This document shows, piece by piece, positions 5,882 through 19,842 of a stretch of 21,118 nucleotides of DNA; the first letter of the stretch is position 1; each line of letters starts with the position of its first letter. The DNA comes from Paraglomus occultum. Taxonomy: Eukaryota; Glomeromycota; Glomeromycetes; Paraglomerales; Paraglomeraceae. The notes below the pieces were generated by a model, which searched no databases, was not told where the DNA came from, and was given only the letters and a program-made list of their open reading frames with translations. Location of the stretch: contig CAJVPJ010000598.1 of assembly GCA_910592205.1 (NCBI GenBank), positions 1 through 21,118 on the forward strand, read 5' to 3'. The position numbers were made by a program, and so were the translations under genes.

Positions 5882-7604
5882 TCACTGATAAAACTCTGAC
5901 AGTTTTTGAGTCACTGCTTTTAGTTTAGAACTATCATTATATTCAAAAAAGTAAACCTTACTTCGTGCCTTAGTGTAACCTTGTTCAGCTGCTTTTTGAT
6001 ATAATTCAATAGCTTTTGCTCATCTTGGTTTACTCCAACTCCTTTCTCATAACACCAACCAAGGTTATATTGTCCATATGGATGTCTTTGTTCAGCAGCT
6101 TTTTGGAACAATTCAATAGCCTTTTGAATATCTTGGTTTACTCCAATTCCATTTTTATAACACAGACCAAGACTAACACATGCATAAGCATTCTCTTGCT
6201 TAACTGCTTCTTGATACAGTTCAACTGCCCTCTGAGCATTTTTATCTACACCTATTCCATTTTCAAAGCACCAACCAAGGCCAGCCTGTGCAAAAGAATC
6301 CCCTTGCATAACTGCATCTTGATATAATTTGACAGCTTTTTGATAATCTTTCTCATTTATACTCGTTCTATATAAATGACCAAGATTATTCTGTGCACCA
6401 CTATGTCCTTGTTCAGCTGATTTTTGATACCATTCAACAGCCTTTTGTTCATCTTTTTCTACTCCAGTTCCATTATTGTAAGACAAACCAAGATTATATT
6501 GTGCTTGAGCATACCCTTGTTCAGCTGCTTTTTGATACCATTCAACAGCCTTTTGTTCATCTTTTTCTACTCCAGTTCCATTGGCATAACACACACCAAG
6601 ATTACATTGTGCTTGAGCATATCCTTGGTCAGCTGATTTTTGATACCATTCAACAGCCTTTTGTTCATCTTTTTCTACTCCAATTCCATTGGCATAACAT
6701 ACAGCAAGATTATAATGTGCTTGAGCATATCCTTGTTCAGCAGCTTTTTGATACCATTCAACAGCCTTTTGTTCATCTTTTTCTACTCCAATTCCATTAT
6801 CATAACATACAGCAAGATTATATTGAGCATTGGCATATCCTTGTTCGCTGTTTTTTGATACCATTTAACAGCCTTTTGTTCATCTTTTTCTACTCCAGTT
6901 CCATGTCTATAACACTAACCAAGATTACATTGTGCTTGAGCATCTCCTTGTTCAGAAGCTTTTTGATACAATTCAACAGCCTTTTGTTCATTTTTTTCTA
7001 CTCCAGTTCCATAATAATAACAACTACCAAGATTATATTGTGCATCAACATATCCTTGTTCAGCTGCGTTTTGATACCATTCAACAGCCTTTTGTTCATT
7101 TTTTTCTACTCCAGTTCCATTATCATAGCACCAACCAAGATTATATTGTGCTTGGGCATCTCCTTGTTCAGCTGCTTTTTGATACCATTCAACAGCCTTT
7201 TGTTCATTTTTTTCTACTCCAGTTCCATAATAACAACAACTACCAAAATTATATTGTGCATCAACATATCCTTGTTCAGCTGCGTTTTGATACCATTCAA
7301 CAGCCTTTTGTTCATCTTTTTCTACTCCAATTCCATTATCATAACACCAACCAAGATTACATTGTGCTTGAGCATATCCTTGTTCAGCTGCTTTTTGATA
7401 CCATTCAACAGCCTTTTGTTCATCTTTTTCTACTCCAGTTCCATTGGCATAACATACAGCAAGATTATAATGTGCTTGAGCATCTCCTTGTTCAGCTGCT
7501 TTTTGATACCATTCAACAGCCTTTCTCCCAGTTCCATAATAATAACAATTACCAAGATTATATTGTGCCTTGGCATCTCCTTGTTCAGCTGCACTTTCTT
7601 GCAT
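5882..7604 (-). pseudogene. Sel1-repeat protein gene, broken by one stop codon and two frameshifts
   Basis: Sel1 repeats (SLR, TPR-like) are 36-residue alpha-helical hairpins that build protein-binding solenoids; they are highly expanded in Glomeromycotina. About 16 units are visible, consensus AAEQGxAxAQYNLGxCYxxG followed by TGVEKDEQKAVEWYQK. ATG 7604 is the first ATG in frame. The first unit lacks five codons of the VEKDEQ loop. In unit 7 a TAG at 6917-6915 replaces the conserved Trp of L-G-W-C-Y, and one base is missing near 6847, so unit 8 continues in another frame from about 6864. A second single-base loss near 6013 (CAAAAGCT for CAAAAGGCT) shifts the end: the shifted frame stops at 5920. 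The other frame continues the repeat (AIELYQKAAEQG) and ends KLSEFYQ-stop at 5882, evidently the original terminus. Units 12-15 are more divergent than 2-11. No kinase or other domain was seen on either side. A spliced or error-affected functional gene remains possible. Confidence 0.85.
6013..7595 (-). repeat. Tandem array of 108-bp Sel1-coding units with a 216-bp higher-order repeat
   Basis: The coding repeats are also strong DNA repeats: the + strand shows the same 108-base pattern (TGTTCAGCTGCTTTTTGATA, then a run ending CCAAGATTATATTGTG) again and again. Units at about 6949-7164 and 7165-7380 are a near-identical pair of 216-base double units, sharing the unusual GCATCAACATATCC and GCGTTTTG variants at a spacing of exactly 216. 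This marks a recent two-unit duplication. Because 108 is a multiple of three, the opposite strand is also open over long distances; those frames are by-products. Confidence 0.85.
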
Positions 7605-7663
7605 ATTGAAAAGCAAATGTTGGTTATGATTGTTTAATATTAATATTAATAAAGAAATAGCAG

Positions 7664-7683
7664 TATAATAATAATAATAATAA
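7664..7683. repeat. ATA/TAA trinucleotide microsatellite
   Basis: About six and a half copies of a three-base unit, just upstream of the Sel1 gene start. Likely length-variable among strains. Confidence 0.8.
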
Positions 7684-9180
7684 GTATTCACAGCACAGCC
7701 CGCTTTTTGTGTGACAATTGTATTTCGTCACACTGGATGGGACTTCTACAAATAGTAATAGTAAGTTATTTTTCATAAACATTTATTTCTTTGGTCTTTC
7801 AATATACTAAGTTGTGAACCATTCATAACAATTATTAGAGCAACTACTGGCAGACAAATTACTTACTGCTTGACAATAATTTATGGCCAAACCAGTTAGC
7901 AAATGATTGAGAAATGTTGTAAGCAGTATTCTTATACAGCGTTGTCGCAGGTGACCAATGTCCAACATGACATGTTGGCACTTTCAAACGTTTTCTTCTC
8001 TCTCAGCGGCTTTAAGTTGGTAAGTTTCTTATCATCTCAGAGTCAACGATGGCGAAACTGGGTCGAAATTTAAAAAGCTGCCGGAAAAAGAGGACAACAA
8101 TGTTAATATAATGAAATTTCTATAATTTTTTTTTTAACATAAATGTCGGACGTCCTTTAATCTGTGCGGTTTATTTTCGACTGGTTTCGGCGACATGAGC
8201 CCCCGTCGTTCGATGATGTTATTCAATTTATCTATTGTCTAGGTTAAGTAGCCAGCCTCATTGACTCGAATAAACATGCGCTTTTACTTACTGAAAAACT
8301 GGTGCAGGGAGTGTTTTTTGCTATACATGGGCTTCCGATGACAAACTATGCGTCTCCTGATAGTTTTCGATGATCCACCTAAAAATCTTGGTCGCGGTGA
8401 ACATAATGACTATTTCATGTAAAAAGTTTAATTACGTATTATTACTTGTGGAGTTATCAGTTATATTATGACGTTGTGCAAACAACATATAATGTAAATA
8501 TAGTTTGCGTGATTGAACGACGGAACCAAAATAACAATTGATATAACTGTCACTACAGCGTGAAAATTTTTCTCGAAAACTATGCTAAAAGTTATGGATT
8601 ACCCAAGTTCCGATTGAAATGTCAATAACTTGTAATTTAACGAGTTATATCAGTCTATTTTGTTAGGCAAAAATCCTAATGCCACGCACGCTAAGCGTCA
8701 TGTATTATTCCCTCAACGATTTTTAACTCTGTCTTGCTTTGGTAAGTATCTAAAGGAGCAAACGGCATAACAGGCACTTGTAACCTAGAACATTTCACCA
8801 AATCAGCTTTGATTACTTCTTGATTAGACAATGCGTCTCGGTTTATTTTTTGTTTCAATTTTCACTTCTTTTTTTCCCCATCAGCAGGATCTTTCATCCT
8901 TCGCATTTGCCCACTACCTTACCGGCAAATCACATGTATGCAAAAACTGTTACAGACTTTCTTGCAGCAGGGGTACGTAATAATTTATTGAGCACTTAAA
9001 TATGCCAGAAAATTTTAATTATGGAGATATGAATTTCCATTTATTAAACCAAAGTATTCGCAGCAGACATTTCCAACACATATCAGATCAGCCAGAAACG
9101 AGATCAATATCTACAACAAAGGATCGGGATATTGTTTGTGGACATATAAACATACGCATAGATCTAACTTGATTAGCCGG

Positions 9181-9393: not shown

Positions 9394-10114
9394 CTATGCT
9401 TGGTATTTCTTCAGCGTTGCGATCTCTTCTAGCATCTGTCGTATCTCGTCGTCTTCGAATCTCCTTGCCAGACTGGTTAAAAGTTGAGAATAAATGAATT
9501 GTAATGTAGAAACATATACAACCAACTCGTATTGATGATAGTACCTTGGAACTAACGATTTGGCTTCATCCAATTCTTCAGGGCATAAATTTACTAACTG
9601 TGCGAGCTCATATTTGTGTAGATTGTGCTTAACCAGTGTTCTATGACGAAAAATGGGAAAAGAACAACAGAGATGATGACAAGCAAGGGGATGGATCGGA
9701 AATATCAAAAGTTTTGTAACATACGTGCGTAAGTCTTTCACAGCATCCTCATTGTTAAACTTTCCAAACTTTCTCACATATTCCCAAGTCTTTCGATATA
9801 CGCTGTTAGGATGTGGACCGTAAGCGATTGAACATCTCAATTGTAACAAAATGTTTGAATAATGCCTGAAACACTGACTCTGTATTTGTATTATTTTGCT
9901 GTGACTTGGTCTTGTCCATGATCAGATAGGCCTCCGATATAAAGAGGACTTCAACGACATCTTCAAAGTCTAAAGCGGATGGATTAGAAACCATATATAC
10001 ACATACAGATGTCAATGACGCAATCATACCTTCTCCAAATTTGAGTTTAGTAGCATCTTCTTCATCCGGGAGTAATTTACGACCTCTTTCTACTCTACCG
10101 ACGTAGTGGGACAT
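9394..10114 (-). CDS. RPB4: RNA polymerase II subunit RPB4 (five exons, 142 aa)
   Basis: RPB4 pairs with RPB7 to form the stalk of RNA polymerase II, acting in initiation, RNA binding and mRNA fate. Exons inferred from splice sites and family match: 10114-10030, 9969-9866, 9789-9725, 9640-9545, 9472-9394; total 429 bases, 142 residues, which equals the length I recall for human POLR2D. Family hallmarks: N-terminal KLKFGEDFEDVVEVLFISEA, then TWEYVRKFGKF, then LHKYELAQLVNLCPEE, then LVPSLARRFEDDEI and a C-terminal L-K-x-Y-Q-x end. The motifs rejoin only if introns of 60, 76, 84 and 72 bases are removed. Donors are GTATGA, GCATTA (or GTGTTT nine bases upstream), GTATGT and GTACTA; acceptors end TTTAG, AAAG, CATAG and CCAG. 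ATG 10114 is chosen because the upstream in-frame residues are hydrophobic and unlike the family. It is transcribed alone, away from the kinase genes. Intact. Confidence 0.93.
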
Positions 10115-10170
10115 GGTGAGAGAGATCGAGGTGACTATAAATAAAGCGATGTGGTAAAAAAGGGGTATTT

Positions 10171-10176
10171 CACGTG
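10171..10176 (-). promoter_or_regulatory. CACGTG palindrome upstream of RPB4
   Basis: An E-box/G-box core (CACGTG), the site type bound by fungal bHLH factors such as Cbf1 or Pho4, lies 57 bases before the RPB4 start codon. Only position and sequence support it. Confidence 0.3.
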
Positions 10177-10207
10177 ATTGTCGAGGCTGATTTGCTCGGG
10201 AGATCAT

Positions 10208-12930
10208 ATGAGCGAGCGCTTACAATAATGGTTTCCTAAAAAGTATGAATGATGCGACTTTAATTTGACAGCTGTAAAAAAATGCCTGACTTTAACGTTT
10301 TCCGCCACAATCACAACATGTGAAGTCAAGGTTTTTGTGATAGGTATAGTATCTGGTGCAGCGTTGATAAATCATGCAAGTGTTACGTTTTCTTATGTCC
10401 ATTGACATGTGTGTCGAAGATTTATCATTCTAACATACAGTACTTGTATCATGATAACTAATTTTCCTGAGGTAAAATTTAAACCTGCATAAGTTGAGGA
10501 GTTAGCGTTGTTGCGCTTTTTACTTACCGAGAAACGGCATTCCATGATGAATACGATAACGATGCGGTGTTAAATATATGGTATGATGAAAAAGTTAGAT
10601 GGGTTATCCGACTGACGGGAAGAGTTTGTCGAAGTCGACTCCATACTTGCATTGTAGTATTCTAAGACACTTTCTCGTCGCGGCAATGATAACATCATTG
10701 AAAATTGCCACTATTAGTATTATATTAATAACCATTTAATGTTCAACGAATGGCTGCCTATTTGGGTATGCAATAAGTAAATAAATAGCGCCTTGCTCAA
10801 GTAACAATGCATTTAAGTGCTAATGCTATTTACACGGTTATTTAATCGAAACCTTATAATAAATTCTATTTCGTATACTAATAAACTGGTGTTTATAAAG
10901 ACTGGTTTTTCTTACAACGAGTGGCATATCGGACTACATTAACTTACAAACTAAACAACGCAAATAAAAAGACATAGATAGCGCGTGTATATGACAAAGG
11001 TTGATCCATCTACGAACGAGTCAGTAAAGTAGTTTCCGCGAAGAGACGGATATAGACTTATCATTACAGACGAGTCAACTTAACCACGTCATTGTATCTA
11101 ATGAATTTAATATCAATACCAAAATACCAGTATTTATTTGAGTATTACATACTGTGAAACTCATATGACGGATACGAAAATTTTCATGAAACAACCACAG
11201 CTCTAATAAAATTGTGAGTAAGCAGCCAACCAATGTATTAATTTGCTACTTACATCAAACCTTGTCCCATGAAGCGAATCAAACCATGAGGCGGCGTAAA
11301 AAAATTTCCCTTAGGCGTACAGGGAAATATTGTGCAAAATGAAACACGAATAAGCGAGCAATCGATATCAGACATACTCAAAGGTCTGAATTCTGGTCGA
11401 ATTTTGGTGACTCTCAAGCATTTGGAACAGAGTTACGTAAAGCAAAAGAAAGAGTTTGCCGAATTGCTGAGTTTAAGCATATTGCAGATTAAATTACCAG
11501 CTTAAATAGGATAAACTTTTTCTTCATACCGGCATAGATGAGAAACTGGCAGTGCACCGTTACAAGGTAGTTATTAGCGCATTCTTAGTGGGAAGGATTT
11601 ACACAATTTTAAAAGGCTTATTATCTACGGAAAGCTAGAAAATTTATCTATTTTACTGTTTATTGATTTCTTGTATAATAACTATACAGTAATTAAATAT
11701 AATATTCATAAGCAGAATACTTCCTGGCATACGTGGTACTAAATTGTGACTGTAAGGTCTGAGCTTTAATACTGTAATCCGATGCATACAAGGCAAGGCT
11801 ACGTACTATCCAAGATGTTTCAATATATTGCTGCCCAGGAAGTGACATAACATTAGATTTTGAAACATATTGGTATTGGATTATTGGAGTGGTGTATAGG
11901 ACAATGTAAGACCGGGCAGCAGTTTCTAAAATATTACTAAGACGATGATAGAATAGACGAGTGTTACGATAGCTTTTCCGGCATGACTATTGCGGTGAAA
12001 TTCTATGTTCAGATAAACATTACGATTGTGAAGAAGATTTGCACCGACAATTTGTCAAAGAGGTTGCTTATTATTTTCTGCTACGTTACATTCAAATTTA
12101 CGCCTTGACTAATAAATTGTTCTCTCGATAGCTAAAACATCACAAGAAAACAAACAATTATTCTAACGTTATTTGTTTTTTGGGCTTATACAAAAATTTG
12201 TTTATAAGCAATAGATTATTGATTTTTCATGCAAGTACAGGTATTCTTTTTATTTTATTTTCTTCCGCCAACAGACGCTTTTACGTATCGTTACCTAAAA
12301 ATTTGCATTCATTATTTGCGTACACGTCGCGAAAAAAAGTTTATCTCTTTTTCCCGTAGCATTGTATCAGACGAAACTTTCCGATATTGTTTACCTGGGC
12401 TTGATACGTTCGGCATTATAAATAAACGCTTCGGCATATAGTGTATAGTTATCTCACTTCATAAGAATCATGGACGACACACCGACCATTGGTATAAATC
12501 AGCTTTTTATTCACTCAAAGCGTTCCAGTTGCTTTTAATATGTTATTTAATGTCAAGTGACACAGTATTATATTAATATAGATGAGTAATAAATTGAAAT
12601 GACAATGGAAGCGGTAAACGTTTTTATTCTACTATTTGTGCAACAATACACGTGAGATACGTGCAGTCGCCACAGTAATAGAGTAAATGACGAAATGAAG
12701 TTCTGCGGGATCAAATGGTATTCCAACGCATTATAAATAGATAATAAAATTTAACGCCAAATTGAAAATATTTTGCTGTCATAAGATAAACTTAACCGCG
12801 TCAATCATTACCGATAGTAATCTGCGTACATTCAGTTAATTGTTTAAAACCCAACGCAATAATAATCACTAATCAACGTCACGCATCAATTGTTATTTGT
12901 AGAAAAACGTATTTGATTTTTTTTATTTCA
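10208..12930. other. Gene-poor stretch of about 2.7 kb
   Basis: No supportable gene. Two weak open stretches were noted: 11286-11492 (+), an ATG frame interrupted by one TGA at 11340, and 12229-12441 (+), a 70-codon ATG frame rich in Phe and Tyr. Neither matches a family I know. The rest is AT-rich DNA without visible repeats or RNA genes. Confidence 0.5.
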
Positions 12931-13126: not shown

Positions 13127-15561
13127 TTATTTATAATATATGGTTTCCCATATGTCAGACCTATCAGATAATGCAATAGAAATAAAATCAATGAGTTTGT
13201 CGGCATCTGGACGCTTGTCAGGATCGGCATCCCAACACATCTCAGCAAGTTCCTTATATGCCTCAGGTGCAGAATCTGGTATCTGTGGTCGCAATCCATC
13301 TGTAATATCACACAATAAATTTCTATCAAATAGCCTATCTGTAAAAGGTGATTCACCAGTGGCCATCAAATACATAATATGGCCAAAAGAATATATGTCT
13401 GACTTTTTTGTAAATTTGCAAGTATGAAAGATTTCAGGTGCAATAAAGGATAAAACACCTTGCATACTCGACTTTGACCTATTACTATATGACTTCACTG
13501 ATCTTGAGTGGCTAAAATTACATATGTATGCAGTAGTATTACTTAATAAGACGGCTTCTTTTTCTGGCTGAGCCAACATATAACTCAAAACTATGCTTCC
13601 ACCATGAAGATTGCAATGTACAATTTCTGAATAATGTATATTGTACAAACAATGTGCAATATCATGCAAATATTGAAATTTCATCCTCCAAGTCAGCTTG
13701 TCAAACTTTTTTGCCAAAAAAGGTAAAAGATTGCTAGAATTAGCATATTCCATAACAATTATGTACTCTCTTGTTTTTGGGAATTGTGAGACTCCATAAA
13801 TTCCAAGTAAAGCCCATTCATCATTCCGGCCACCAAGACACTTGGCATGATTTCTGAACTGTTAAATAAAAATTAAATATAATCAGATCAAATAAAACTT
13901 TGATATTGAGTCAATATCAATATAAGATTTTTACCTCATTAATGAATAATTCTGGTATTTTATCAGAACCTTTAATATGTTTGAGTACAATTGCTTCTGG
14001 CAGACCTTCTTGTAGATAGTTTCTATGTTGTGCAGTATAAACTGTTTCATAGGCACCAGATCCAATCTCCTTGATATTATGAAAGTCATCATACTCCATG
14101 TAATTCATGTTTTCATTGGCATACACAAATTTGTCTACTACTTCTTTCACTTCTTGATAGAACACCAAATAATAGTCTTGAGTAAATGGTTCTTGTGTGA
14201 TACCAACAACCCAAATATTATCTGGTGTTAATATGTCAGGGTATTCCTTGGATAGCTGTTGAAATAAATGAATAATCAGTTTCAACACATAATAATAATA
14301 CATGCTCATGTGAGTTGCATTCTTTAGACATTCAATAATTTACCTGATAGAAGTCGAATGATTGAGCATTCCGTCCCTCAACTATTTGTTTGAGTGAGAC
14401 TGTCATCCATTCATTTGTAATATTATTGTACCAATTTGCTATGTATTTGCATTCAGATGCTGTCATCTCTCTTATGCCTGTCAAAAGAGAGTGGTCAATC
14501 CATTGGATATAATAATAGTAGTCAGCTTCCTCTATTTCCTTCACATTATTCCATGATTCCATAATAAATGAATCCAAAGACTTGTTGCCAGTTGTCCAAT
14601 CAACAGGTCTTGGTGCTTTACATTCAAAGCAGAATGCTACAATTTCAGATCGCCATAGTCGTGTACATGACAGACATAATCCACCCCCATAGCATTCTTT
14701 TATTAAATAATACATCTGTCTGTTTGCATCATATGTAAATCCAATGGTTGTCCAAACATCTTTGGAGAGAATATCTAGATACTCAATACACAACTAGTAA
14801 AAATGATGCACGGCTATTACTATTATTATTATTATGTTAAGTAATAATCATCCAATACCGTGATGCATAATTATAATTAAATAGCTTACCATGTCATATG
14901 TCTCATCTGTTATCTCAAGTGAGATCAATTTTATTCTTTCACGGGTAGGCAGACCATTTAAAAATAATCGGCTACAATTCGTAATTTCAATACAGTCAAA
15001 TGGAATCCATTCCAAATAAGCCTCATTTGCCGAATTTGTTCTCATTTGTGATTTCTTTATAAATTCGTCGAGGAGCTTGTTGTTGCTAGTCCATCCGTCA
15101 GATAATTGCTTGTATCCACAAACGCACCATACCGGACTACACCGAAGTATTCCGCATGCAGAGCAGAATCCATAAACAGAGTAACAATGATGAAAGTTTC
15201 CCTCAGCAACCATATAATATTTATCTTCATACTTGGTAAATCCCTGTATGAGCTTGTTGCGCTTCTTAAGCCAGATTGCGTATCTTTTAAACTGGCTGAC
15301 ATCGTTATTGTAATTGTGCGTTGGAAGTGAGTATATTCTGGCAAATTCACTCACTAATGCAGGTGTGCATGTTTCTTCACTTCCGAGTAATAGAAGCATT
15401 ATCTTTCCACAATAATAGCTTTTATTAACAGCATAATGTATAGCGTCAATGTGACTTGGTTTTATGTCGGTGATGTGCGAGCATGGAATCCATCTAACAT
15501 TCGGCAAGGAAGATTGAATCAAGCTATCAATTGCTTTATGAGCTTCTGAAAGTAATGACAT
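13127..15561 (-). CDS. Pseudokinase gene 1: four serial kinase N-lobe-like segments and one degenerate C-lobe (724 aa)
   Basis: Exons 15561-14890, 14793-14344, 14255-13935, 13858-13127; introns of 96, 88 and 76 bases, all GT-AG and phase 0. ATG 15561 is the first in frame and agrees with gene 2. Layout: N-lobe-like segment 1 (residues about 22-120, WIP, GKIMLLLLGSEE, QGFTKYEDKYYMV); Cys-rich linker (C133, C136, C141, C146, C148; WTSNN 157-161); segment 2 (about 184-258); second linker (C264, C267, C279, C282; WTTGN 290-294); segment 3 (about 320-406, VSLK with K359); segment 4 with glycine loop GSGAYETV (439-446) and K466; then the C-lobe. The C-lobe has HCN (562-564) for HRD, Ser569 for the metal-binding Asn, NFS (595-597) for DFG, and an intact APE (621-623). 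Catalysis is therefore unlikely; a scaffold or signalling role is inference. The Cys4/W-T-x-x-N prelude is known to me from Glomeromycotina kinases, normally once per protein. No signal peptide or membrane segment. Confidence 0.88.
13900..13920. other. 21-base palindrome around TGAGTCA in intron 3 of pseudokinase gene 1
   Basis: Two exact 10-base arms (13900-13909 and 13911-13920) flank one central base; the centre is an AP-1/Gcn4-type TGAGTCA. The matching intron of gene 2 is shorter and lacks it. Function unknown; chance is plausible. Confidence 0.4.
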
Positions 15562-17364: not shown

Positions 17365-17381
17365 GAGCTTACTAGATATTT
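17365..17381 (-). pseudogene. Short fossil of the kinase C-terminal tail behind gene 2
   Basis: The last coding residues Y-H-N-D-I match the kinase fragment near 2500, then a TGA intervenes. A few bases on, AAATATCTAGTAAGCTC (minus strand) resembles AAATATTCTCGTAAACTC of the fragment's tail (about 2540-2557). Short, so only moderately supported. Confidence 0.45.
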
Positions 17382-19842
17382 CAAGATGTAATATCATTAT
17401 GATAAATGGCTTCCAATATGTCAGAACTATCCTTTAACACATTTTCAATAAAATTACTGAGTACACTTGTCTCTGGACGCTTGTCAGGATCAGCATCCCA
17501 ACACATCTCAGCAATTTCCTTATATGCCTCAGGTGCAGAATCTGGTATCTGTGGTCGCAGTCCATCTGTAATATCACACAATAAATTTCTATCAAACAAC
17601 CTATCTCTAAAAGGTAATTCACCAGTGGCCATCATATACATAATAAGGCCAAAAGAATATATGTCTGATTTCTCTGTAAATTTGCAAGTATGGAAGACCT
17701 CAGGTGCAATAAAGGATAAAACACCTTGCATACTCGACTTTGACCTATTATGTGACTTCACTGATCTTGAGTGGCTAAAATTACATATGTATGCAGTAGT
17801 ATTACTTAATAAGATGGCTTCTTTTTCTGGCTGAGCCAACATGTAATTCAAACCTATACTTCCACCATGAAGATTGCAATGTATAATTTCTGAAGAATGC
17901 ATACTGTGCAAACAATGTGCAATATCTTGCAAATATTGAAACTTCATCCTCCATGTCAGCTTGTTAAAGTTTCTTTCCAAAAAAGGTAAAAGATTGATAT
18001 AATCACAATAGTCCATAACAATTATGTATTCTCTTGTTTCTGGGCTTTGTGTAATTCCATAAAGTCCGGGAAAAACAGACTCCCCAGATCCAAAAACACA
18101 CCTGGCATAATTTCTGAACTATTAAACAAAAAGTAAATACAATCAGATCAAATAAAACTTTGAGTTAATATTAATATAAGATTTTTACCTCATTAATAAA
18201 TAATTCTGGTATTTTATCAGAGCCTTTAATACATCTAAGTACAACTGTTTCTGGCAGACTCTCTTGTAAATAATAGTTATAGTTATAGTGTTTATATTGG
18301 GCATTATAAACTGTTTCATAGGCACTAGACTGGATCTCCTCAATATTATGAAAACCATCATAATCATACTCCACATACTTCATATGTTCATTTCCATATA
18401 AAAATTTGTCTATCACATCTTTCACTTCGTGATACAACACCAAATAATAGTCTTGAGTAAATGGTTCTTGTGTGATACCAATAACCCAAATATTATCTGG
18501 TGTTATTATATCTGGATATTTCTTGGTTAACTGTTGAAATAAACAAAAAGTTATGACATCCAATAATAATAATCAGTTTCAACACATAATAATAATACAT
18601 GCTCATGTGAGTTGCATTCTTTAGACATTAAATAATTTACCTGATAAAAGTCAAATAAATGAGCGTTCAGTCCCTCAACTACATGTTTGAGCGAGACTGT
18701 CAACCATTCATTTGTAATATTATTGTACCAATCTGCTATGTATGTGCATTCAGGTACTGTCATCTCTCTTACATTTGTGAAGAGAGAGTAATGAATCCAC
18801 TGGATATAATTGCTATATCCAGCTTCCTCCAATTGAATAATATTACTCCAAGATTCCATAATAAATGAATCCAAAGACTTGTTGCCAGTTGTCCAATCAA
18901 CAGGTCTTGGTGATTTACATTCATAGCAGAATGCTACGACCTCATGTTGCCATTGTTGTGTACATGCCAGACATAATCCACCCTCAAAGCATTCTGTTAT
19001 TAAATAATACATTTGTGTACTTGCATTGTATGTAAATCCAATGGTTATCCAATCATCTTTGGAAAAAATATCTGGATTCTCATTACACAACTAATGAAAA
19101 TAATGCATTATTATTATTTATATTATATTAAAGCAATAATCATCTAACATTAATAGCTTACCATGTCATAATATGAATCTTCTGTCTCATCTGTTATCTC
19201 AAGTTGCATCAATGTTACATTTTCACGAGTAGGCAGACCATTTAAAAGTTTTACTATGTCATTTTCCACATATCCAATACAGTCGAATGGAATCCACTCC
19301 AAATAAGGCTCATTCGTTGAGTTCGTTTGTATTTGAGATTTCCTAATAAACTCGTCCAGTCGTTTATTATTGCTGGTCCATCCGTCAGATAATTGCTTGT
19401 ATCCACAAACACACCATACCGGACTACACCGAAGTATTCCGCATGCGGAGCAGAATCCATAAACAGAATAACAATGATAAAAATTTCTCTTAGCAACCAT
19501 ATAATATTTATCTTCATGCTTGGTAAATCCCTGTATGAGCTTGTTGCGTCGCTTAAGCCAGATTGCGTATCTCTTAAACTTGCCAACGTTATTGTACTTG
19601 GACGTCGGGAGTGAGTATATTCTAGTAAACTCAGTCGCAAACACTGGTGTGCATGTTTCTTCACTTCCAAGTAATAGAAGCATTATGGGAATATTACCAT
19701 TATTTCTTGTACGAGATGCATAGTAAATGCTATCAATGTCGGCCGGTTCTACATTACTAATCTGTGAAGAAGGAATCCAAACAACTTTGCCATCGTATTC
19801 ATTGTATTCACGTTCTAAGAAAGCTTCTAAAACTGAAGACAT
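17381..19842 (-). CDS. Pseudokinase gene 2: paralogue of gene 1 with further loss of kinase motifs (736 aa)
   Basis: Exons 19842-19162, 19090-18641, 18530-18189, 18118-17381; introns of 71, 110 and 70 bases, GT-AG, all phase 0 and in the same places as gene 1. ATG 19842 is the first in frame. Layout matches gene 1: segment 1 (about 20-117), Cys-rich linker (C131, C134, C139, C144, C146; WTSNN), segment 2 (from WIPF 183-186), Cys4 linker with WTTGN, segment 3 with VSLK kept, segment 4, C-lobe. Exon 2 is exactly as long as in gene 1 (150 codons). The C-lobe has HCN (571-573), Ser578, NFS (604-606) and APE (629-631). Segment 4 is more decayed than in gene 1: QSSAY (444-448) replaces the glycine loop and Arg476 replaces the beta-3 lysine. 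It also has a small Y/N-rich insertion (about 458-464). All exons are open, which argues for continued expression. Function unknown; a catalytically dead signalling partner is inference. Confidence 0.88.

Follow-up and report, generated by a model that had tools for sequence, protein, structure and literature searches.

Serial N-lobe-like units ahead of a single C-lobe in a kinase-like gene family of Paraglomus occultum

Introduction

The kinase domain is usually taken as an indivisible two-lobed unit. Gene A, located at 13127..15561 on the (−) strand of a stretch of Paraglomus occultum DNA (contig CAJVPJ010000598.1 of assembly GCA_910592205.1; the whole stretch of 21,118 nt is referred to here as the window), raises the question of whether one lobe alone can be repeated: the original prediction, read from the sequence by itself, described a 724-residue product with four serial N-lobe-like segments and a single C-lobe. 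The explanation that we favor, as moderately probable, is that an exon-copied string of extra N-lobes forms the regulatory part of a tyrosine-kinase-like (TKL) kinase, which here is probably a pseudokinase.

Gene A contains four N-lobe-like units and one C-lobe

Gene A was modeled as four exons (15561-14890, 14793-14344, 14255-13935 and 13858-13127) parted by predicted introns of 96, 88 and 76 bases, all GT-AG and phase 0, that fall after residues 224, 374 and 481; this model gives the 724-residue product. Unit 1 (15202..15495, residues about 23-120; all parts are on the (−) strand) is annotated as a degenerate kinase N-lobe without an intron, in which the beta-3 Lys is absent and the helix-C Glu (E72) is retained. 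It leads into Cys-rich linker 1 (15079..15183, residues 127-161), which ends in WTSNN, followed by the N-lobe-like unit 2 (14695..15015, residues 183-257), the helix C of which is split by intron 1 (14889-14794), and by Cys-rich linker 2 (14578..14682, residues 262-296), ending in WTTGN. Unit 3 (14157..14511, about residues 319-407) is annotated as a kinase N-lobe with the beta-3 Lys K359 and intron 2 (14343-14256), and unit 4 (13742..14099, residues 427-520), with K466, E481 and intron 3 (13934-13859), is the N-lobe of the kinase domain. The single C-lobe (13187..13741, residues 521-705) carries N564 at the site of the catalytic Asp and N595 at the site of the DFG Asp.

A Pfam search of gene A returned a kinase only, PK_Tyr_Ser-Thr (PF07714) at residues 434-705 (E = 6e-34; 117.9 bits against a cut-off of 23.1). 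Residues 427-705 thus belong to the Pfam kinase family, and unit 4 has the Gly-rich loop, beta-3 Lys and helix-C Glu of a kinase, with the loop reading GSGAYE in gene A and most commonly GSGGYG across the family. As predicted, the C-lobe follows unit 4 only: Pfam sees one kinase stretch, there is no inner C-lobe in the alignment and gene A has no second complete two-lobed domain of the kind that defines a tandem pseudokinase-kinase. From the Pfam match and a structural resemblance to RIPK kinases (see below), gene A is classed as a TKL kinase, and its product is probably a pseudokinase, as the Asp of both the catalytic loop and DFG, by which an active kinase is recognized, is replaced by Asn.

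The four hinge hairpins of the original prediction were located at residues 106-118, 241-255, 391-405 and 502-516. A hinge-hairpin pattern, drawn up after the hairpins had been seen, matched four times in gene A; none of 20,000 residue shuffles of it gave more than one match. The prediction also held that segments 3 and 4 align without a gap for 55 residues, from W/Y to the intron, placing K359 opposite K466. The alignment is gap-free and pairs the two lysines, but it runs for 53 residues, not 55, and includes only 5 identities, so that it counts little alone. The serial-lobe reading rests instead on the profiles of the family, the positions of the introns and structure.

The array is conserved in a large family

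A tandem paralogue, gene B, is located at 17381..19842 on the (−) strand (exons 19842-19162, 19090-18641, 18530-18189 and 18118-17381; 736 aa) and shares the architecture of gene A, including four matches to the hinge-hairpin pattern, the HCN and NFS motifs and Asn at both Asp sites. Among 172 matches in the genome of the window (32.3 Mb, 1,408 contigs), at least 89 exon-1-like places were found, A and B included, a lower bound given that the search scored the best candidates only; their exon 1 is 51–73% identical to that of gene A (A itself apart). We fetched 40 of the other 87 loci, all of which (40/40) matched gene A by tblastn, and 29 of them gave open models of more than 690 aa with three introns at corresponding places. 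These 29 loci, A and B make up a 31-member alignment, from which we left out loci at contig ends (L039, L051 and L055), loci with early stops (L042, L058, L071 and L073), loci whose start was not found by the script (L056 and L069) and loci for which one intron was not found (L059 and L072). Further alignments comprised 17 rows including 15 of the 29 locus models (A1), 14 (A3) and 12 (A4) of the 31 members, and 80 (A2) and 108 (A5) of 120 listed exon-1 proteins.

The prediction that segments 1 and 2 lead into Cys-rich linkers was borne out across the family, with Cys at C133, C136, C146 and C148 of linker 1 and at C264, C267, C279 and C282 of linker 2 in 31/31 members; C141 of linker 1 is also invariant across the 17 rows of alignment A1. 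We infer that both linkers bind zinc. Lys is found at K359 in 30/31 members and at K466 in 29/31, and Glu at E481 in all 31, while the catalytic Asp site holds Asp in 22 and Asn in 9, and the DFG Asp site Asp in 24 and Asn in 7. The residue before the intron is mostly Glu in unit 2 (22/31), Gln in unit 3 (27/31) and always Glu in unit 4 (31/31), and that after it is Leu in units 2 and 3 (31/31 each) and Phe in unit 4 (29/31). The hinge-hairpin pattern matches 2 to 4 times per member. As aligned, the added lobes rarely pair Lys with Glu, unit 1 and most copies of unit 2 having the Glu without the Lys and unit 3 having the Lys with Gln.

Outside this genome, a search of public collections with an exon-1 profile yielded 502 proteins (best E = 1.2e-124). 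A species name is attached to none of the 120 that were listed, and those with a contig given sit on short contigs and appear to be metagenomic. A scan of prokaryote genomes found no relatives. With the kinase domain alone as the query, the named relatives among the 120 listed were proteins of Paraglomus occultum, Gigaspora and Rhizophagus, which would place the organism among Glomeromycotina-type fungi.

Selection and a proposed binding or regulatory role of the array

We estimated the ratio of nonsynonymous to synonymous substitution rates (dN/dS) over whole units in the 8 closest of 465 pairs, which share members. The ratio ranged from 0.20 to 0.52 in unit 1, 0.03 to 0.38 in linker 1, 0.32 to 0.79 in unit 2, 0.21 to 0.44 in unit 3, 0.33 to 0.74 in unit 4 and 0.40 to 0.89 in the C-lobe. 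It was lower than in the C-lobe for unit 3 in 8/8 pairs and for units 1 and 2 in 7/8 pairs each. Between two related seven-lobe genes, L079 and L080 (described below), it was 0.16 to 0.38 in six exons and 0.225 overall, L080 exon 2 being omitted. Units 1–3 likewise gave 0.37 to 0.42 between A and B, both of which lack the catalytic Asp. This retention of the array in members without the catalytic Asp would point to binding or regulation, and the main role of the array would be binding rather than phosphorylation.

Two functional readings may be drawn, namely regulation in cis or assembly around the terminal kinase, and a repertoire of sensors or decoys. According to the former, the extra lobes, having no C-lobes, could not catalyze and would serve as folded modules for interaction, binding partners and/or packing on the terminal kinase by way of helix C and the beta sheet; such packing or partner binding would control activation of the terminal kinase or assemble complexes. 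The extra domains of plant tandem kinases have been proposed to act as decoys or sensors that trigger the kinase. By analogy, the extra lobes could duplicate kinase targets, so that binding of foreign or partner effectors to them would trigger the terminal kinase, with the large divergent family serving as a recognition repertoire. The number and divergence of the exon-1 places and the retention of the array without the catalytic Asp speak for this alternative, as does the reported presence in Rhizophagus irregularis of high-copy kinase, Sel1 and other genes in strain-specific sets with a proposed role in perception (PMC8647823). On the other hand, whole-unit dN/dS did not suggest diversifying selection in unit 1 or unit 3, and we consider decoys or sensors a possible but clearly less likely explanation than a regulatory string of N-lobes.

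Profiles and predicted structure relate units 1–3 to kinase N-lobes

The favored explanation requires that the added units be N-lobes. We compared profiles by hhalign against 100 column shuffles each, using unit 3 without its W-I-P entry (the unit 3 core), a canonical lobe set (4 of 8 proteins tried, the pattern having missed the rest) and a serial set of 12 lobes (all 7 of L079 and N3-N7 of L080). The unit 3 core reached hhalign probabilities of 91% with unit 4, 94% with the serial lobes, 69% with the canonical lobes and 95% with both sets joined, and 0/100 shuffles did as well in each case; as a control, four other pieces of the same proteins reached 1.8% at most against unit 3, unit 4 and the joint set. 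Unit 2 aligned to unit 3 over 94 columns (97.2%; core 95%, 0/100 shuffles), and the introns of the two fall at matching residues. Profile-profile comparison shows that segment 3 is related to kinases, as is segment 2 by way of segment 3.

The structure check, made for segment 1, did not refute the prediction. Two AlphaFold2 runs (mc406d32f3938 and m0d66485544e5) gave unit 1 the order beta1-beta2-beta3-helix C-beta4-beta5 plus an extra helix, i.e., the N-lobe arrangement of five strands in which helix C sits between beta3 and beta4. For each model, the 50 rows listed by Foldseek and the 50 listed by VIA-align were kinase entries throughout, with RIPK N-lobes among the best of the matches listed.

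Several results weigh against serial N-lobes. Unit 1 beat all 100 shuffles against the four-sequence canonical set at a probability of only 21%, and against five other targets 2, 4, 4, 20 and 43 of 100 shuffles were as good, which leaves the profile relationship of segment 1 weak. The unit 2 core was not significant against unit 4 (44/100 shuffles; reversed, 5/100) and gave 11/100 against the serial lobes, 1/100 against the joint set and 0/100, at 2.4% probability, against the canonical set. Profile searches with units 1, 2 and 3 in Pfam, and with units 2 and 3 in the PDB, found no kinase. All Foldseek E-values for unit 1 exceeded 0.001, and one of its five AlphaFold2 models was far better than the others (pLDDT 73 versus 51–60). 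Linker 2 gave dN/dS of 0.24 to 1.66 on few codons, with 1.08 and 1.66 in 2/8 pairs, and module 2 of L080 is frame-broken as assembled. Finally, the splicing scripts sought phase-0 GT-AG introns near the expected places only, so that phase and exon length were imposed on the family models and the open frame is the check.

The Pfam result weighs less than it might, because Pfam also gives low scores to most undoubted N-lobes excised in this manner. If duplication had been limited to the linker-helix-WIP entry and hinge hairpin, segments 1 and 2 would have another fold and the N-lobes would be segments 3 and 4 only. The weak scores of the unit 1 and unit 2 cores against true N-lobes and the lack of Pfam (units 1 and 2) and PDB (unit 2) profile matches would fit such a partial duplication; the N-lobe topology predicted for unit 1, the kinases in 50/50 of its listed PDB rows and the 94-column alignment of unit 2 to unit 3, shared intron site included, make it unlikely.

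Introns inside helix C suggest a copyable exon

How a string of N-lobes could arise is suggested by relatives with different numbers of modules. As the original prediction noted, the prelude occurs once in Glomeromycotina kinases. In P0097 of Paraglomus occultum and P0116 of Rhizophagus clarus, for example, a Cys-rich linker, WTSGN, a helix, the EWIP/W-I-P entry, an N-lobe and a C-lobe follow one another, once each. Gene A has the same linker, W-T-x-x-N, helix and W-I-P entry, with the linker present twice and the helix and entry repeated; its four N-lobe-like units, and the absence of a Cys-rich linker between units 3 and 4, set it apart from the single-prelude form. Two further loci, L079 (contig C749) and L080 (contig C1104), have seven linker–N-lobe modules each, followed by one C-lobe, so that the genes seen hold four or seven N-lobes per protein.

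The inner exons of L079 are spliceable in phase 0, starting with the Leu just past the helix-C Glu site and ending at the next such site, although five of its seven introns allow more than one in-phase acceptor, of which we took the first. Inner exons are 33–44% identical to one another. The beta-3 Lys is present in 6/7 L079 lobes and the helix-C Glu likewise in 6/7; lobe 2 is the only one with both replaced (Lys by Arg, Glu by Gln). Searching the genome of the window with the N-terminal piece of P0097 gave 150 matches. The helix-C Glu lies near the end of 22 and near the start of 58, and a further 10 span that site; 48 are confined to the prelude, and 12 fall outside all these groups. It was strings of matches on C749 and C1104 that led to L079 and L080. 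Seven of the 22 lie on array contigs (C749, C1104, C263 and C1049), and the 15 elsewhere were taken as canonical kinases; two canonical-type loci, L006 and L007, were inspected by tblastn. Contigs C263 and C1049 hold further close matches (up to 70–88% identity), and more seven-lobe-type arrays may exist there in pieces. On contig C224, long open frames accompany four same-strand linker-WTSGN matches spaced 4–9 kb apart, which may be separate, clustered genes.

Since the inner exons of L079 start and end at helix-C Glu sites, the repeat at the DNA level would be the exon from one helix C to the next. Introns inside helix C, in the family of gene A and in L079, would bound an exon comprising helix C, beta4-beta5, linker, WTSGN and W-I-P up to the next helix C, and in-frame copying of this phase-0 exon would add one N-lobe and one linker at a time and never a C-lobe. 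The four-lobe family would then be a worn form of the seven-lobe exon series with one intron and one linker lost, losses suggested by the intron-free unit 1 and the missing linker between units 3 and 4.

Alternatively, the array could descend from complete kinase domains in tandem, with later deletion of C-lobes. Tandem pseudokinase-kinase proteins are well known, and the 10/150 P0097-piece matches that span the helix-C site imply that some kinases here have no break there. Nevertheless, we saw no C-lobe remnant in the 31 family models or in L079, the inner lobes lead to a Cys-rich linker (a short linker in unit 3) and the breaks fall inside helix C, which renders this origin quite improbable compared with one-exon copying. 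Least plausible, and very unlikely, is that the loci are decaying kinase pseudogenes or fragments merely resembling one protein: there are early stops in the models of 4/40 fetched loci, the broken frame of L080 and the missing Asp residues of A and B, yet 29/40 loci are open across four exons, all lobe units have dN/dS below 1 in 8/8 close pairs, there is no variation at the linker Cys and hardly any at K359, and 502 relatives of exon 1 occur in public collections.

Comparison with known kinases

The linker-WTSGN-EWIP kinases of Glomeromycotina, which share the order of parts with the genes of the window, rank, in the matches listed, with the named proteins closest to the kinase domain. They differ in having prelude and N-lobe once; genes A and B each carry four N-lobes with two Cys-rich linkers, and L079 and L080 seven of each. 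In tandem pseudokinase-kinase proteins (JAK JH2-JH1 and wheat tandem kinases), an extra kinase-derived domain, thought to be regulatory, precedes the terminal kinase; that domain is whole and two-lobed, while the genes of the window repeat N-lobes only. RIPK/MLKL kinases of the TKL group, whose RIPK N-lobes resemble unit 1, have a single kinase domain. A Glomeromycotina-specific MLKL-like expansion has been reported, the proteins of which carry Sel1 repeats, unlike the serial lobes described here (PMC8778642).

The original prediction knew of no described kinase family built in this way, and our open-literature searches turned up no recognizable description of serial N-lobes or of such an enzyme. 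Kinase expansions of these fungi are already known, and the repeated half-domain is undescribed as far as the literature was searched. We would give roughly even chances to the broader proposal that "serial N-lobe kinases" form a new architecture class, in which half of the kinase fold serves as an exon-encoded repeat and a binding array can outlive catalysis, and whose extra lobes may even exchange with the terminal N-lobe on the C-lobe. If so, one lobe alone of a supposedly indivisible domain is repeated, the helix-C introns suggest a route (the exon between two of them being a cassette, one N-lobe per copy) and the serial lobes offer a direct test of the capacity of a lone N-lobe to fold and function. 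The finding is also relevant to the large kinase expansions in arbuscular-mycorrhizal-type fungi, where Pfam misses some of the lobes.

Other features of the window

A third kinase piece at 1839-2630 on the (+) strand starts at the hinge and has HCDLHGGN and DFG intact; tblastn with gene A found no exons 1–3 upstream of it within the window, and it is possibly a 5′-truncated copy. An RNA polymerase subunit Rpb4-like gene (Pfam E = 3e-14) occupies 9394-10219 on the (−) strand as two overlapping open frames, the upstream of which had no Pfam match. Finally, Sel1-repeat coding sequence is located at 5920-7727 on the (−) strand, in separate open frames at 5920-6864 and 6915-7727 (Pfam E = 2e-90 and 5e-78, respectively).
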